A stretch of 64,000 bases of DNA from Hyaloraphidium curvatum. Its lineage: Eukaryota; Monoblepharomycota; Hyaloraphidiomycetes; Hyaloraphidiales; Hyaloraphidiaceae. The DNA lies in assembly GCA_025558095.1 (NCBI GenBank), contig JAIVFI010000042.1:1-64000 (forward strand). The letters are read 5' to 3'. The first letter of the stretch is position 1; each line of letters begins with the position of its first letter. The position numbers were made by a program, and so were the translations under genes. Shown here one piece after another: positions 8,961-48,829 of the stretch. The notes under the pieces were generated by a model. That model was not told where the DNA came from. It searched no databases and saw only the letters and a list, made by a program, of their open reading frames with translations.

Positions 8961-9369
8961 TGTGGCCGCGGTGCTGTCGGTCCGTCGATGCTTTGGGCGA
9001 GAAGTCGCGTCGACGGATTCCCGCGGCCAGCCAACGCATGCACCGCACATGAGCAATCGGAACCGAGGATCAAGGGTCTTCGTTACTTGCCGTCATGTTC
9101 CACCTGAACTGCTAACTCCTGTCGGACCTTCCTGCCACGCCGTGCACCTCTGGTAGGACAAGAAGAAGCTGAAGAGGGACGAACAGAGAGGGCAAAATGC
9201 CGCTGCCCGAACCGGATCGACGCCATCCGCGAGATGCTTTGCGATGATTGGGACGCATCGAGCTAGATGGGGACCGCCTGGGACGCCAATGCCGATGCGG
9301 CGGCGGCGGGGATCTGTGGCGGCCCAAACATCGGCCCGCCGAACCGTCCCCCACTCCATATTCCCCGCC
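8961..9369. other. Intergenic
   Basis: 409 bp upstream of the hydroxy-acid oxidase. No gene seen. A CCCAAACATCGGCCC sequence (9323-9337) resembles the element upstream of the small secreted genes. Confidence 0.35.
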
Positions 9370-10584
9370 ATGGCTCCGCCCGTTCCCGACGCGGTCGCCA
9401 AGTCGCCGTGGCTTGCGCACGCCGTCGCCTCCCCGGAAGCGCGCGACCGGTTCGCGGTGCAGCACGAGTTCGTCCCCGCGGCACGATCGGCGCTCGACGA
9501 CCGCACGTGGAACTACCTCCGCGGCGGCTCCGAGACGGAGACGGCGCTGCGGCGGAACCGCGCCGCGCTGGACTCGCTCGCCTTCTCGGCGCGCGTGCTC
9601 GTCGACGTCTCGGAGACGGACGCGTCGGCCGACTTTTTCGGGCGGAGGATCAGGCTGCCCGTCGCGCTGGCGCCGGTGGGCGCGCTGCAGAGCTTCCACT
9701 CAAAAGGAGGGGCAGCCGCCGCAGAGGGTGCCGGCGCGTTCGGCGTGCCGATGATCCAGTCGAGCGTGTCGGCGCCGTCGCTGGAAAAGGTCGCCGCCGC
9801 CGGGCCCGGGCCCAAGGTGTTCCAGCTCTACGTCCGCGGCGGGGACGACTTCATCGATCAGCACGTGGAGCGGGCCATCACGGCCGGCTACGACGCCTTT
9901 GCCATCACCGTCGACACGGCCGTCATCTCCCGGCGCGAGCGGGACCTCGAGGCGCGCTGGGTCAAGGCCTGGGCCGACCCCAACACGGCGCCGATGAAGT
10001 TCCAGGCCGCGCTCACCTGGGCGCAGATCGAGCGCGTGCGCCGCAAGTACCCCGGCGTGAAGCTGATCCTCAAGGGCATCCAGCGCGCCGACGACGCCGT
10101 GCGCGCCGCCGAGATGGGGATCGACGTCGTCTACGTGTCCAACCACGGCGGCAGGCAGCTCGACCACGCGAGGGGGAGCATCGAGGTGCTGCCCGAGGTC
10201 GTGCGCGCGGTGCGGGGGAGGGCCAAGGTGTGGGTCGACGGCGGGTTCGCGAGGGGGTCGGACGTGGTCAAGGCGATCGCGCTGGGCGCCGACCTCGTCG
10301 TCGTCGGGTGCGTCCGGCCTTGTCCTGTGCTTGCTTGTTCTAACCCTGAAGTACTCCGTGACCACAGCCGGCTGTACCTCTACGCCCTCTCCGCCGACGG
10401 CCCCCGCGGCATCACCCGCATGCTCGAGCTCCTCGAGGACGAGGTCCACCAGATCCTCGCGCTGATCGGCGCACCGACGCTCGCGCACCTGGACCCGTCG
10501 ATGGTGGTCCGCACGGACGGGCCGGTCGTGCAGCCGGGGGTGCTGAGCGCGTTCCCGCTGCTGGAGGGCAAGGAGAAGCTCTAG
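9370..10584 (+). CDS. FMN-dependent alpha-hydroxy-acid oxidase/dehydrogenase
   Basis: Exons 9370-10307 and 10368-10584; 384 residues. The 60-nt intron (GTGCGT donor, TTCTAAC branch) is in frame but inserts a non-family sequence between VVVG and RLYLYALSADG. Family features (PF01070, lactate/glycolate oxidase): the N-terminal WNYLRGGSETE, PVALAPVGALQSFHSKGG for FMN binding, QLYVRGG, the catalytic VSNHGGRQLD (His as base, Arg for carboxylate), VWVDGGFARGSDVVKAIALGA for FMN phosphate, and the G-R-LYLYAL strand. It oxidises 2-hydroxy acids to 2-keto acids. No PTS1-like C-terminus (ends KEKL), so compartment is open. Confidence 0.92.
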   Translation: MAPPVPDAVAKSPWLAHAVASPEARDRFAVQHEFVPAARSALDDRTWNYLRGGSETETALRRNRAALDSLAFSARVLVDVSETDASADFFGRRIRLPVALAPVGALQSFHSKGGAAAAEGAGAFGVPMIQSSVSAPSLEKVAAAGPGPKVFQLYVRGGDDFIDQHVERAITAGYDAFAITVDTAVISRRERDLEARWVKAWADPNTAPMKFQAALTWAQIERVRRKYPGVKLILKGIQRADDAVRAAEMGIDVVYVSNHGGRQLDHARGSIEVLPEVVRAVRGRAKVWVDGGFARGSDVVKAIALGADLVVVGCVRPCPVLACSNPEVLRDHSRLYLYALSADGPRGITRMLELLEDEVHQILALIGAPTLAHLDPSMVVRTDGPVVQPGVLSAFPLLEGKEKL

Positions 10585-10871: not shown

Positions 10872-13800
10872 ATGGCGCACACCCGCACGGCGTCCGAGTC
10901 GTCGCGCGACGCGCCGCCGCCCGCGCCCGCCGCGCCCGGCCGCCGGCCGAAGCCGCGCACGGGCACCGAGATCCGCGCGGCGCTCGAGGACCACTACCGC
11001 GTGGTCAGCTCGGTGATTCTGGCAAAGATGAACCCGCTCACGGGGCTGCTGCCCGCGAGCACGGCGGTGACCATCCACGGCGGTGGGCGGGCCTGATCCC
11101 TCCCCGGCACACGGCAACTGATGTGGGAACGCGCGGCAGACTACACGGACGCGTGGGTCCGCGACAACAGTGGGCTGACGTGTCGCCTCGCCCCGCCGGA
11201 CGCCCCTCTGACCGGCACCGTCCCATCCGTCTGCCCGCAGTCAACTCGATCTTTGCCGTCTTTGCCCTCGCGCTCGCGTACCGCCGGATCGACGACAGCC
11301 AGGGGCGGTACTACGAGCTGCAGCACTGCGTGGTCAAGAACATGAGGGGGATGATGGGCTGCATGATGAAGCAGGCGCCGAAGGGTGGGTCTTGGCGGGT
11401 TGCGACACCCTTGTGGTTCTGGCTGACTCGCAGCCGGCAGTGGAGAAGTTCAAGCACACCCAGGTGACCCCCCCTTTCCGAGTCCCGCCCCCCTCCCCTC
11501 CCACAACTGATCTCCTCCCCGCCCGCCCAGGCACCCATGGACGCCCTCCACGCCAAGTACTCCACCACCACCGGCGACGTCGTCGTCGGCGACGCCGAAT
11601 GGGGCCACCTCCAGATCGACGCCACCTCGCTGTTCCTGATCGCGCTGGCCCAGATGACCCTCGCCGGGTTGGAGATCGTGTGGACCATGGATGAGGTGGA
11701 TTTCGTCCAAAACCTGACGTACTACATCGAGAGGGCGTACCGGACGCCGGATTTCGGGCACTGGGAGCGGGGCGACAAGGTGCGGCGCTCGAGCCCCCCT
11801 CAGCGGCCATCGTGGCTGATTCGCGTCCCGCAGATCAACCACGGCCGCCCCGAGCTCAACTCGTCGTCGATCGGCATGGCGCTCGCCGCGCTCGAGTCGA
11901 TCAACGGGGTCAACCTGTTCGGCGCGCGCGGCGGACCGGCGAGCGTGGTCAGGGTCCTCGAGGACGAGGTGGCGAGGAACAGGGTGACGATCGAGGCGGC
12001 GCTGCCGAGGGAGAGCGCGAGCAAGGTCGGGATGCTGGGCCGTCGTCTGCCGCACTGCTGTTGACGAGTGCGTTCTCCCGACAGGAAGTCGACGCGGCCG
12101 TGCTCGCCGCCATCTCCTTCCCCTCATTCGCCGTGCGCGACCCCGAGCTCGTCGAGCTGACCAAGCGCGAGATCATCACCAAGCTGCAGGGCAACTACGG
12201 CCTGAAGCGGTTCCTCCGCGACGGCCACCAGTGCGGTGGGCCTCCTCGCTCCCCGTCCCCTGCCCACGGCCGCTGACTTCCCGCCCCGTGGCAGCCCTCG
12301 AGGACATCAGCAGGATCTACTACGACCCGCACGAGCTGCAGATCTTCGAGAAGATCGAGAGCGAGTGGCCGCTGTTCTACACGTACCTGCTGCTGGACGG
12401 CATCTTCAACGGGGACGCGGCGCAGGTCGAGGAGTACAGGGAGAGGATCGAGAACATTCTCGGTTGGTCGACCGCGACGCTGATTTACTCACCTGTTCTG
12501 ATCGGATCCGGTTCGCGGCGGCCAACAGTCGACTCGACGACCGTCTCGGGCTTCGACCCGCACTCCTTCGTCGACCTCAACGTGCACTTCCCCGCCCTCC
12601 ACGGCACCGCCGGCGCCGACATGCCCCTCAAGTCCCCCCTCCCCCCCGACTCGATCGCCCTTCTCCCCGAGCTCTACTTCGTCCCCAAGCAGCTCATCGA
12701 GGCCGAGCGCGCCGAGCCCCGCAGCCAGAAGCGCCTGCCCGGCGAAAACGTCCCCCTGGTGTGGGCGCAGAGCCTGTGGATCACGGCGCAGCTGCTCATG
12801 GACGGGCTGATCGAGCCCGCGGACATGGACCCCCTGGGGCGGCGGTTCAACGCCCGCAGGCCGAAGAAGGACACGGTGGTGCAGGTGGTCCTGGTCGCCG
12901 AGAGCCCGGCGCTGCAGGCGCGGCTGCGGAACCTGGGGATGGAGACGCAGACCATGGACGAGCTCGGGACGGTCGCGGTGCGGGGGCCCAACGGGCTCAG
13001 GGACGCGCTCTCGGTGCTGGGGATGAACCAGAAGCTCGGGCTGACGGGGCGACCGCAGCGTGCCGTGGGCATCCTGTCGACGAGCAAGCTGTGGCGCGTC
13101 GAGGGGAGCTTGTACTCGTTCCTGCCCATCTTCCTGGACCGCGACGAGTTCTACGGGGCGTCGGACCCGGACTACATGGTGAGGGCGCGGCCGCGAGCTT
13201 GAGGGTCCTATCGCGCTGAAGCTCGCGTTCTGAAAAGGTCGACCTATTCGTCACGCACCTCAACTTCCTCAAGAACCACTGTGGGTGGCGGGTGGGAGCG
13301 GCCGTCAACATGCGCTGACGACCCTGCTCTTGCTTCTCATAACCCGCAGGGAACTCGCCTGGCCGCCCGACGATGACCATCCTCATCACCGAGCAGCTCA
13401 TGCGCCCCTTCCGCCACGTCTCGCGGGTCCAGCCCGGCCGCCGCACCTTCCTCCAGCTCGTCAACGAGGCCAAGGCCGGGCAGGTCGGCGACGTCCGCGT
13501 GCGCCTCGGGCGGATGCAGGAGATGGTCCCCACGTCGTGCATCGAGTCGCTCGACTTCCTCACCCGGAGGGTGGGGACGGCCGAGGACTGGAAGCGGATC
13601 CTGAGCGGCAAGGCATCGTTCGACGCCAGCGTGCCGATGGACAAGCTGACGCTCGACCGTACGATCCGGACTCGGAAGCAGAGCGGCGGGCTGTCGCGGA
13701 GGGATTCGGGTGGGTTCGACCGCGAACAGGCGGTACGGGACTTCCTGACGCCAGGGCCACCGCACTCCGAACCCACAGCGATGTTCAAGTCGTTCAAGCT

Positions 13801-16043
13801 CCCCATCGAGGAGATCGCCACCACCGACGCGGTCCTGGGCACGACCGCCTTCGAGTTCCCCTCGCCGACCAACCCCCCGTCTGCACTCCCCACCTCGTAC
13901 ATCAGCTCCAAGGCCGACAAGGCCGGCTCCTACTTCGCCGCCGAGCCCGAGCGCGAGGACCCCCCCGCCGACGGCTCCTGGCGGCTTAAGAAGCACGTCG
14001 GCGGCACCGTCGAGATCGAGCCCATCAACGAGTCCCTGGCGCTGGACGTGTCCGACCCGAGCAAGGTGCCCGACGCCGTGGCGGCGCTACGCGAGTCGAG
14101 CAGCCTGTTCGACCAGGCCGACATCCTCGAGTACCTCAAGGCGGTCAAGGGCGGGGACTTTGACGTGCAGGGCGCGGGCAAGGTGGACGACCTGCTCGAA
14201 GAGATCTACCAGAAGGCGTCCAATTTGGCGTGGGTTGCGCGCGCCCCTCATCGCGATCCAGCTGAGCCCCACCCTCCCCCAGCCTGTGGAACGTGGTCCG
14301 CCAGACCGCCGCCCTCCTCCGCAAGACCCCCAGCGGCCTCTCGCAGCACCTCCTGGACCTTCTCGTCCGCCGCATCCCCCTCTCGGTCGGCCACGGCCCC
14401 GGCGAGTTCCTCATCACCACCACCGGCCGCCCCATGGGGGACATGAACGCGCCCTCGGTCCTGAACCCCAAGGAGATCGCGTCGCTCATGTACGACCACG
14501 TCGGGGACTCGCGCGACGGCGCGATGCTGATCGAGGTGGTGATGGCGCTCTCGGACGCCTCCAAGGCCGACCCGCACCTCCTCGCCGGCGTCGCCCGGCT
14601 GCGCATCTCCAAGATCCTCGGGGCGCTGGTGGACGAGCTCAGCCGGACGTACAGCGAGGGGTACGAGGCCGCGCACGAGCGGCTGATGGCGCTCAGCCCG
14701 ACCGAGGTGCGGACGCTCGTGAGGAAGCTGCTCGAGGCGCACGACACGGCGGTGCAGAGGGGCCCGCAGAGGACGGCGACGCCCATCAGCGGCGGGGGGT
14801 TGCTCAAGGGGGATGTGGAGGCGGAAAAGGCGCCGGCCAGGGTGGCGAGGCTGCCGAAGGTGCTGGAGCTGCGGGCGCAGTCGGCGGGGGAGAGCGCGGG
14901 CAACTTCGCGACCGTGGACGTGCTCGTGGACGGCCAGCCCGTCGCGCTGCCCGACAGCCTCGCCCTCGGCCCCGCCTCGCGCGGCCTCGTGGTCGTGGTC
15001 GTCGACACCACCCTCGGCATCGTCACCTTTGCCGCCTCGTTCGACACCCACGCCGCGGACGAGGAGGCCGCGGACCTCGCTGGGTTCGTCGAGGAGCTCA
15101 AGGACGGCGAGGCGGTCGCGGTGGCGTGCAAGGACGACAGCTCGGAGCACCTCGCCGAGCCGGCGCTGGCGGCGATCGAGGCCAAGCTGGGGTCCAAGCT
15201 CGTCAGGAAGATCGGGTTCAGGGACTCGTGGGCGCTGGTCGCGGTCGCCGGGGACCCCTCCACGACGCGGGAATCGCTCGTCCCCGCGTCCGAGGCCCGC
15301 CCCTCGGACCGCGTGGAGCTGCGCGTAGACATGGCCGCCGCGCGGGAGCGGATCAACTTCATGCAGCTCGCAGAGAACGAGGCGTTCGCGACGTCGGCGT
15401 CCCTGGCGATGCTGGCGCCGAGCCTGGGGGAGTGGTACCGCCGCCGCGCCGTGGACGGGGCGCTGAACCGCGTGCCGGAGGGGTTCTACAAGAAGGTGGG
15501 TGGGGCGCGGGCCATCGGCGGACGCGGATTGCTGACGACGATTCTTGGCGGCGGTGACACCCACAGGTCTGGGACCTCCTCTCCCACTCCAAAGGTCTCT
15601 CCCTCTCCCCCGCCCCCAGCGACGGCTCCAAGACCCTGCACAGCCAACCGCTGGTCTCGGAAAAGACCGCCGAGGAGTTCAACTTCGCCATGGCCGTCGA
15701 GACGTGGCTGGACGCGGTGGAGGACGCGGCGAGCAGGGAGGTGGTGTGCGAGCTGGTGGACTGCATGGGGGTCAAGGAGCGGGACGGGGTGGTTAACCTC
15801 GTCGAGGTCGTGAGGTGGGTCCCCTGCGGCTCGGCGCTGCCCCCCGTGCGCCGTTGCCCTTGTTGACTTGGGACCCACAGGGACGCCATCTCGGCGCACT
15901 GGACCGCCTGGGCCTCGTCCTACGTCGCCGACGGCGGCTCGGCCGACATCGCGGAGCACACGCGGCTGGCGACGCGGATCTTCGAGGACCTGTCGGAGGA
16001 GGAGGCGCGGAGGTACCTCACCGCCGCGCTGGGGGACAGGTAG
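10872..16043 (+). CDS. Phosphorylase b kinase regulatory (alpha/beta) subunit with inserted ILEI/FAM3-like domain
   Basis: Fourteen exons, all phases consistent: 10872-11082, 11140-11169, 11241-11384, 11441-11463, 11531-11779, 11834-12025, 12085-12235, 12295-12462, 12529-13178, 13238-13280, 13350-14229, 14283-15495, 15567-15814, 15881-16043; 1,454 residues, against about 1,100-1,240 in animals. Exons 2 and 4 are micro-exons (30 and 23 nt). PhK signatures: [103 protein letters not shown], and the C-terminal [20 protein letters not shown] calmodulin-binding region. Residues ~1117-1240 match ILEI/PANDER (FAM3) domains ([39 protein letters not shown]). The insert sits where animal alpha/beta subunits have their phosphorylated regulatory loop. 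No CaaX box at the C-terminus. Confidence 0.9.
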
Positions 16044-46800: not shown

Positions 46801-48829
46801 CGCCGAGGCCGTCGAGCTCGTCGCCGTGCAGCTGGTCGTGGAGGGCGTCTGCAGGGGGCCTCGTGAGCACCGGGGACGGATTCGAACTTGGCCGACGCAC
46901 CAAAGTCGTGGAGCTCTCCGAGGCGGAGGTGCTGGTCCGGCTCTCCGAGGTCGTCGTGCGCGTGTCGCTTCTCGAGGCCGTCGAGCTGGTCCCGGTCAGG
47001 GAGCTGGAGGTCGGCGTGAACGAGGCCGTCGCCGTCAGGGAGCTGGAGCTCGGGGTGAAGGAGGTCGTCGCCGTCGGCGATCTGCTGGTCCGGGTCCGCG
47101 ACGAGGTGGCGGTGTCGGAGGTCGTCGAGCTCGTCCTGCTCTCTTTTGTGGTTGAGGACGTCCGGCTCGCCGAAGTCGAGGACCTGGTCCGGCTGTCCGA
47201 AGTCGTTCCGCTCTTCGAGGTGTTCGACCTGGTGCGGCTCAGCGAGGCCGTCGAGCTCGTCAAGCTCTGCGAGTCCGTCGATGACGTTCTGGTCCCCGAG
47301 GTGGTTGAGGACGTCCGGCTGGGCGACCTGGTCGAGCTCGTACGGGTCTCCGAGGCCGTCGAGCTGGTCCTGCTTTCCGAGGCGGTCGACGAAGTCGCCG
47401 TCCGGCTCGCGGTCGAGGAGGTGGCGGTGAAGCTGGTGCTCGATAGCGTGGAGGTCGAGGGCGTGAATGTAAGGCTCGACGAGGTGGCAGTCCGACTCGC
47501 GGTCGAGGAGGTGGCTGACAAGCTCGTGCTCGACAGGGTGGAGGTCGAGGGCGTGAATGTGAGGCTAGACGAGGTGGCGGTCCGGCTCGCGGTCGAGGAG
47601 GTGGCACTCAAGCTGGTGCTCGAAAGAGTCGAGGTGGAAGGTGTGAAGGTGAGGGTCGATGAGGTCGCCGTTTGGGTAATGGTCGTGGTCGTCGTCGGCG
47701 GAGGAGGCGGCGGAGGTGGAGGCGGCGGGGGAGGTGGAGGCGGCGGTGGAGGTGGCGCAGGAGGAGAGGTCGTCATGGGCGGAGGCGGCACCGGCCTAGC
47801 CGTGGTCAAACGGGCCGTCGTCGCCCTCGCCGTCGTCGGCCGCCTCACCACCGCCTTGGTGGTGACCACCCTCGCACACACGACCCCCGTTCCCGCGAAC
47901 CCGAACCTGCAAACACAGCTCCTCGCGGTCCCGTCCCCGATGCACACCGCGTTGGCCGAACACCGCGCGCACGGGTCCCCCGGGAGGGCCTGCACGCGCC
48001 GGATGAAGCTCTCGCCCCACAGCCCAGGGCTGACGACGGTCCCCCCCGGGCGGGGCTCGAAGGACCAGATGCCGACGATGGAGGCGGCGAGCCCCGTCCC
48101 GCGGAAGGCGGGGGCTCCCGACTGCCCCGCCGATCCGTCGCAGGCCACGGCGACCGCGGCGAGACCCGTCCGGAAGGGGCAGGTGGCGAAGCTCGGCGCC
48201 GTCCCGCCCAATCTGGAAGCGGGGTACCCCGCCACGGTCACCGCCCCCGCGTAGGGCGCCGGCCAGCGTCCCATCGATCCCGCGGCGACGGGCGCCGCGA
48301 GCTTGACCACGCCCCAGTCGTAGGCCGCCGCCGCCGGGTAGCCTCCCACCACGGCATTGCGGAACTCGGGCGGCACGTGCAGCTCCCTCCCCGCCACGCG
48401 GCCGTACGGCAGCCTCGCGCCCGCGCGGCCGACGGTGACCGCGACGGACTCGACCCATCCCGCCGGCCGGCCCCGCGCGGGATCCGGCGGGCGGAAGAGG
48501 CACGACGCCGCGGTGAGCACGAAGCGCGGGGCGATCAGCGCGCCGGAGCAGCTGAACGACCCGTAGCGGTCGCGGATCTCGAGGCGCGCGAGCGTGCGGA
48601 AGGGGAACGCGGCCGCGTCGGCCACGGCGCGGCGGCCGTCGGCGCCGGTCACGCCGCGCCGCACAACCTCGGGGCGGCTGAGATTGCGTCCGATGGAGGA
48701 GTTCCGGCCCGACGCCACCGCTGATCCGGCGAGGGAGAGCACGGCGAGCAGCACGAGGCCGGCCACCCCCCGGAGAGCGCCCCCGCCCCGCTGCCGGCGA
48801 ATCCCGCCCGTCCGCCCGGTTCCCTTCAT
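43878..48829 (-). CDS. Giant secreted protein: inactive trypsin fold, EGF, Ser/Thr stalk, three RCC1-like propellers
   Basis: Minus-strand exons 48829-46901, 46848-44884 and 44828-43878 (introns 52 and 55 nt); 1,614 residues. Signal sequence at ~17-40. Trypsin-like domain ~60-285: SCSGALIAPRFVLTAASC has serine (109) where the catalytic histidine belongs. Asp171 (YDWGVVKL) and Ser237 (GQSGAP) are present, so it is probably a pseudoprotease. EGF-like cysteines at 287-318 (CARCSANAVC...CVCRFGFAG). Then a run of more than 20 prolines, and a Ser/Thr-rich stalk of ~300 residues with internal ~33-residue repeats. Both introns lie in Ser/Thr-rich linkers and restore frame there. Three related propeller units follow with HFVALRVDGTVVAWD, HTVLLEDDGTVRAFG and similar RCC1-like blades. 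Expected at the cell surface or matrix. Confidence 0.75.
47395..47690 (-). repeat. Coding tandem repeats in the Ser/Thr stalk
   Basis: Three near-identical ~99-bp units encode blocks around FTPSTSTLSSTS and ATSSTASRTATSS. Directly upstream in the coding direction (about 47695-47770) GGAGGC/GGTGGA repeats encode the polyproline run. Length is likely polymorphic. Confidence 0.7.

Follow-up and report, generated by a model that had tools for sequence, protein, structure and literature searches.

Introduction

Reversible protein phosphorylation was discovered through phosphorylase kinase (PhK) and glycogen phosphorylase. The function of the glucoamylase-like subunits of PhK (alpha, PHKA1; beta, PHKB) is unexplained (PMC10978961). 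PHKA1 carries two GH15 catalytic-type glutamates (Glu185, Glu371) and the GH15 site of human PhK alpha is apparently intact, yet activity is not detectable (PMC10978961). Both human subunits are farnesylated at a CaaX motif, Lys588 and Tyr593 of alpha touch the gamma subunit, and the last helical domain holds gamma in alpha and makes dimers in beta (PMC10978961). Here, we describe a gene of this family from Hyaloraphidium curvatum. It lies in a stretch of 64,000 nucleotides (assembly GCA_025558095.1, contig JAIVFI010000042.1, positions 1 to 64,000 of the forward strand), which is called the window throughout. An earlier reading of the bare sequence, referred to here as the original prediction, took the gene for a PhK regulatory subunit with an embedded ILEI/FAM3 domain. 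We found that it encodes a fungal protein of the GH15-plus-KPBB_C family with an inserted ILEI (GG) domain within a single coding exon, and that the GH15 glutamate pair and the ILEI sugar-contact residues are conserved.

The inserted domain has well-described relatives of its own. The stem of POMGnT1 binds N-acetylglucosamine (GlcNAc) via R129, D179 and R207; carbohydrates are also bound by FAM3C and by a worm domain, both with the R/D/R residues conserved, but not by a worm domain without two of them (PMC9802357). In TMEM2, mutation of R265, D273 and D286 abolishes hyaluronan degradation (PMC10276149). PHKB was recovered with a C-terminal fragment of human CEMIP (KIAA1199) in a pull-down and by co-immunoprecipitation, and in the same study CEMIP increased both the phosphorylation of phosphorylase and the breakdown of glycogen (PMC4196182). 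The PHKB contact was assigned to the second GG (ILEI-type) domain of CEMIP, residues 1201-1361 (review PMC9600181, Table 1).

Results

Gene structure and domain architecture

When we built a splice model from the DNA, the gene yielded a single frame of 1454 residues on 14 exons, which did not contain any internal stop. The introns are 53-71 nucleotides long, every one of them is bounded by GT..AG and the donors are mostly GTGGGT or GTGGGC. An in-frame candidate intron of 69 nucleotides (13710-13778) is optional and its splicing would give a 15-exon alternative. Pfam searches of the protein returned PF00723 (GH15 glucoamylase-like; E 1.3e-73, 248.8 bits, cut-off 22) followed by PF19292 (KPBB_C; E 2.9e-22, 79.4 bits, cut-off 27), both above cut-off and in family order, and the PF19292 match was split in two pieces, the larger of which follows the insert. 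In the PDB, human PHKA1 (E 4e-205) and PHKB (E 5.6e-171) each matched in four collinear stretches over the full length, and the comparison of PHKA1 (8jfk) with the core covered residues 37-391 (436 bits). Both GH15-type glutamates (E215, E437) are kept in the alignment, which is the situation in human alpha but not in beta. The PhK alpha/beta-family backbone stood up to the profile searches, and every landmark named in the original prediction was found in the spliceable 14-exon model.

The same Pfam search identified PF15711 (ILEI) at residues 1147-1237 (E 1.6e-17, 64 bits, cut-off 27, profile positions 1-89 of 90). When all six frames of the whole genome were scanned without splicing, this match came up again at 14980-15252 with 70 bits and without stops. 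The insert is a true ILEI domain and not an ordinary PhK segment, but its Pfam limits are slightly narrower than the range of about 1117-1240 suggested before. When the insert alone was compared with the PDB, the matches were, in this order, TMEM2 (8c6i), the POMGnT1 stem (5ggj), FAM3A, FAM3B and FAM3C. Judged by these matches, the insert is closest to the ILEI domains of TMEM2 and the POMGnT1 stem rather than to that of FAM3C, with which the original prediction had compared it. Structure models over the insert were of low confidence; Foldseek with the insert alone still gave FAM3B, TMEM2 and POMGnT1, and with the low-confidence AF2 model of exon 12 it returned PhK alpha and beta overall, with FAM3B, TMEM2 and POMGnT1 lower down.

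Exon 12 begins with sequence that aligns to PHKA1 and PHKB and has conserved PhK-family sequence at its end. The G+C content at third codon positions (GC3) was 0.985 ahead of the ILEI domain, 0.978 inside it and 0.966 behind it, without a change of reading frame. Open frames alone carry little weight in DNA of 68% G+C. We consider the product a single protein because of the homology on both sides and the shared phase, not because of the open frame as such. As far as the DNA shows, the ILEI region is neither intronic nor part of another gene.

According to the alignments, the ILEI domain occupies a linker inside KPBB_C and is immediately followed by the last helical domain, the boundaries of which presumably correspond to the human ones. 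PHKA1 could be aligned up to about residue 981 before the insertion and from about residue 1051 after it, and the corresponding gap in PHKB runs from 917 to 924. At this linker position human alpha has a loop of about 70 residues, and 27 bacterial homologues have 25-33 residues opposite the ILEI region, compared with 157 here. By these lengths, the domain was inserted into an ancestrally variable linker. The long loop of animal alpha at this position is described as phosphorylated, and the insert had been proposed to replace it; the shared position was correct, but this was not a strict replacement. The coordinates of all features are summarized in Table 1.

Table 1. Features of the PhK alpha/beta-family gene and its ILEI insertion (positions in the window)
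Feature	Position	Strand	Basis
PhK alpha/beta-family gene with ILEI insertion, 1454 residues	10872..16043	+	GT..AG splice model and family matches
Exons 1-7	10872-11082, 11140-11169, 11241-11384, 11441-11463, 11531-11779, 11834-12025, 12085-12235	+	
Exons 8-14	12295-12462, 12529-13178, 13238-13280, 13350-14229, 14283-15495, 15567-15814, 15881-16043	+	
GH15 glucoamylase-like core, about residues 37-470, exons 1-9	10980..12770	+	PF00723 E 1.3e-73; PHKA1 8jfk
Glu215, equivalent of PHKA1 catalytic-type Glu185	11765..11767	+	Alignment columns
Glu437, equivalent of PHKA1 Glu371 (Lys in PHKB)	12669..12671	+	Alignment columns
Helical region before the ILEI insertion, matching PHKA1 766-955 / PHKB 726-917; intron 14230-14282 within	14075..14739	+	PDB match; AF2 exon model
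Exon 12, uninterrupted, 1.2 kb: conserved PhK sequence, ILEI domain, PhK sequence	14283..15495	+	
Expanded linker with ILEI domain, residues 1067-1294	14740..15423	+	Far shorter in bacterial homologues and PHKB
ILEI (GG, PANDER/FAM3-type) domain, residues 1147-1237	14980..15252	+	PF15711; TMEM2, POMGnT1 and FAM3 structures; Foldseek
Arg1147, equivalent of POMGnT1 Arg129 and TMEM2 Arg265	14980..14982	+	Alignment
Asp1198, equivalent of POMGnT1 Asp179	15133..15135	+	Alignment
Arg1227, equivalent of POMGnT1 Arg207	15220..15222	+	Alignment
Larger KPBB_C piece downstream of the ILEI domain, residues 1291-1451; protein end GDR, no CaaX	15412..16031	+	Pfam

Sugar-contact residues and a possible link to CEMIP

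All three GlcNAc-binding residues of POMGnT1 are kept in the fungal domain (R1147, D1198, R1227), and so are the three TMEM2 residues (R1147, D1155, D1168). The residue numbering offsets (86 for the 5ggj chain, 82 for TMEM2) were counted on the alignments and each of them fits all three residues. Because the ligand residues are kept, the earlier suggestion of a glycan sensor is plausible for this domain.

A second ILEI gene was detected elsewhere in the genome (G000:C26, gene start near 306, ILEI exon 1474-1797; PF15711 44.7 bits). Apart from ILEI, Pfam gave nothing significant for its model of 478 residues, the N-terminus of which is polar and without evident signal peptide; an intron interrupts the ILEI domain, and the first sugar-contact arginine is lost. 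This protein, together with phage adhesion proteins that carry POMGnT1-stem-like domains (PMC9437275), indicates that the restriction of ILEI/FAM3 domains to secreted or Golgi proteins had been stated too strongly.

As an alternative to sugar binding, the ILEI domain may dock to protein and thereby reproduce in cis the reported contact between the second GG domain of CEMIP and PHKB. The CEMIP experiments (PMC4196182; PMC9600181) argue for this possibility, and so does the fact that TMEM2, the best PDB match of the insert, is a close relative of CEMIP. However, these experiments come from one laboratory and involve a lysate pull-down of a protein carrying a secretion signal. None of the sugar-contact residues is lost from the fungal domain, and no CEMIP chain was among the PDB matches. 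A docking function that excludes sugar binding is, in our opinion, doubtful.

Bacterial relatives

GH15-KPBB_C proteins of the same full-length architecture occur in cyanobacteria, Methylococcaceae, Anaerolineae and other bacteria (28 loci, 1005-1118 residues). The name "phosphorylase kinase" is therefore borrowed from the animal members of the family. The core of the fungal protein shares 54-55% identity with the cyanobacterial proteins, 48% with PHKA1 and 43% with PHKB, and PHKA1 itself is 55% identical to the cyanobacterial proteins. By these values, the fungal core appears to be closer to cyanobacterial homologues of about 1080 residues, which have no ILEI domain, than to the human subunits. 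A tree of fungal, human and bacterial cores did not resolve their order and had long fungal and human branches; it supports neither that the fungus recently acquired the PhK part from bacteria nor that this part descended with the animal genes. About a quarter of the sampled cyanobacteria have one GH15-KPBB_C protein, with KPBB_C scores of 289-374 bits, which are above that of the fungal protein. When one of these proteins was compared with NCBIfam, no specific model was hit and only a sub-threshold trehalase match was returned.

The ILEI domain was absent from the 28 bacterial homologues, which include one fragment, and was not found in nine whole genomes of such bacteria. In the 72 of 292 sampled cyanobacterial genomes that encode a GH15-KPBB_C protein, the open frames reach at most 1234 residues and are too short for the insert plus a normal length. 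Within this sample of bacteria, the data reject inheritance of the ILEI domain from bacterial PhK-like proteins. A PF15711 scan of 398 Pseudomonadota genomes was also empty but shows little, since the control genomes gave nothing either. A phage origin was rejected when tblastn against 50,697 phage records did not yield any match. In the H. curvatum genome, 96 Zn2Cys6 cluster matches were counted, which together with the yeast-like phosphorylase fits very well with a fungal genome.

Search for a phosphorylase kinase

This locus is the only alpha/beta-type gene in the genome. Other GH15 matches (C38, C14) lack KPBB_C and the genome search did not find distinct alpha and beta paralogues. For the gamma subunit we employed a query that an end-to-end PDB match confirmed as human PHKG1, and matched it exon by exon on the assembly. 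It returned about 90 kinase fragments, all of them matching over the kinase domain only, with a best identity of 43%, and the best kinase was nearest to CaMK1D in a PDB search. The glutamate-type activation segment of PhK-gamma was seen in none of the inspected fragments, a degenerate pattern for this segment had no match in the genome, and the same was true for the PhK-gamma CRD alone, a query that had no positive control. Near the start of contig C46 (G000:C46:496-39775), kinase genes that closely resemble each other are clustered, with several PHKG-query matches of 34-40% identity and a VGTPYFLAPELVSGKDYG motif.

The gamma-contact residues Lys588 and Tyr593 of human alpha are replaced by Glu and Gln in the alignment, and the fungal protein ends with AALGDR and thus lacks a farnesylation motif. 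A glycogen phosphorylase (C9) aligns with the yeast enzyme including an N-terminal RRLTGFLP-like segment, and no animal PhK-type phosphorylation site was seen in its N-terminus. In the yeast enzyme, the threonine of this segment is the regulatory site. A second, more diverged glycogen-phosphorylase-like gene is located at G000:C31 near 187472-190416.

With these data we can weigh the possibility that the protein is a true PhK regulatory subunit, in which the ILEI domain would detect a glycan and thereby regulate the phosphorylation of glycogen phosphorylase by a divergent gamma-like kinase. The full-length homology to PHKA1 and PHKB, the numerous kinase fragments and the presence of glycogen phosphorylase genes are in line with it. 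However, the best kinase is CaMK1-like, the searches aimed at the activation segment and the CRD were empty, the gamma contacts and the CaaX motif are missing, and the phosphorylase N-terminus is of the yeast type. Nothing was found in support of a divergent gamma-like kinase. The occurrence of the same protein family in bacteria, in which, to our knowledge, PhK is not known, weakens this interpretation further. We regard a true PhK subunit as improbable and prefer the weaker designation "PhK alpha/beta-family protein" to "PhK regulatory subunit".

Other sequences in the window

Directly upstream of the gene and on the same strand (9244-10584), there is an open reading frame that resembles flavin mononucleotide-dependent alpha-hydroxy-acid oxidases (YVSNHGGRQLD motif, by eye). 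A tandem repeat at 47386-47665 has a unit of 90 bases (a multiple of three) in 3.1 copies with 85% match and is perhaps a coding repeat. It is surrounded by shorter repeats of 27 and 39 bases (46913-47766).

Discussion

The most probable interpretation of our data, which we hold with some reserve, is that the protein is a glucan-binding or glucoamylase-like member of the GH15-plus-KPBB_C family, to which a glycan-binding or docking module has been added, and that it is not a proven PhK subunit. It would be cytosolic and would act on or near glycogen. The GH15 core may bind, and perhaps slowly hydrolyse, alpha-glucan ends, and the ILEI domain may constitute a second carbohydrate-binding or protein-docking module beside the last helical domain. 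Like, presumably, its bacterial relatives, the protein probably works by itself or together with a partner other than a canonical PhK-gamma.

Several points weigh against this interpretation. Binding of glucan and GlcNAc is a prediction from sequence. Conservation of the GH15 glutamates is no proof of catalysis, since activity is not detectable in human PhK despite the apparently intact site of alpha. The R/D/R residues are mostly family-wide and would permit sugar binding but would not fix the ligand. The outside support from CEMIP goes back to one study, in human, and the protein concerned carries a secretion signal. The gamma search was carried out without a positive control, which limits the conclusion that PhK-gamma is absent.

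It is conceivable, albeit unlikely, that the protein represents a glycan-reading module fused in cis to a PhK alpha/beta-type protein, that CEMIP and PHKB form the same partnership in trans, and that control of this family through an ILEI domain is general and, in the fungus, gamma-independent. Domains that meet in trans in one lineage and share one chain in another are a classical pointer to a functional tie; here this amounts to a hint only. The weakest alternative, two genes joined in the assembly or the gene model or an intronic ILEI stretch, is very unlikely and was rejected. Many open frames are present in GC-rich DNA and the gene model is derived from DNA, but the insertion lies in one 1.2-kb exon, flanked on either side by PhK sequence that shares its frame and its GC3, and the ILEI homology spans the whole domain without a stop.

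Both protein families are known. We did not find a description of a PhK-family protein with an ILEI domain in the open-licence literature, nor a paper in it that combines phosphorylase kinase and chytrid; the domain combination is real and, within the literature searched, undescribed. A natural fusion of the scaffold with a sugar-binding-type domain, in a genome in which gamma was not detected, offers a tractable single-chain case for the function of the scaffold itself. It also lends some independent evolutionary weight to the reported binding of a human ILEI/GG domain to PHKB and its promotion of glycogen breakdown, a finding that has attracted little notice.

When compared with known systems, the fungal protein shares with animal PhK alpha and beta (PHKA1, PHKB; PDB 8jfk) the GH15-like core, the helical domains and KPBB_C, and with alpha the glutamate pair. 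It differs from them by the ILEI insertion, the lack of a CaaX motif and of gamma-contact residues, its single gene and the undetected gamma kinase. The bacterial GH15-KPBB_C proteins have the same architecture, 44-55% core identity, the glutamate pair and likewise no CaaX motif, but they are shorter, their linker is short and they carry no ILEI domain. TMEM2, the POMGnT1 stem and FAM3A-C share the whole ILEI domain, its R/D/R residues and, putatively, the beta-beta-alpha order of elements; these are secreted, membrane or Golgi proteins, whereas the fungal host is a PhK-family protein. In the second GG domain of CEMIP, as in the fungus, an ILEI-type domain is tied to a PhK beta-family protein, but what has been reported as a contact between two human proteins is one chain in the fungus.

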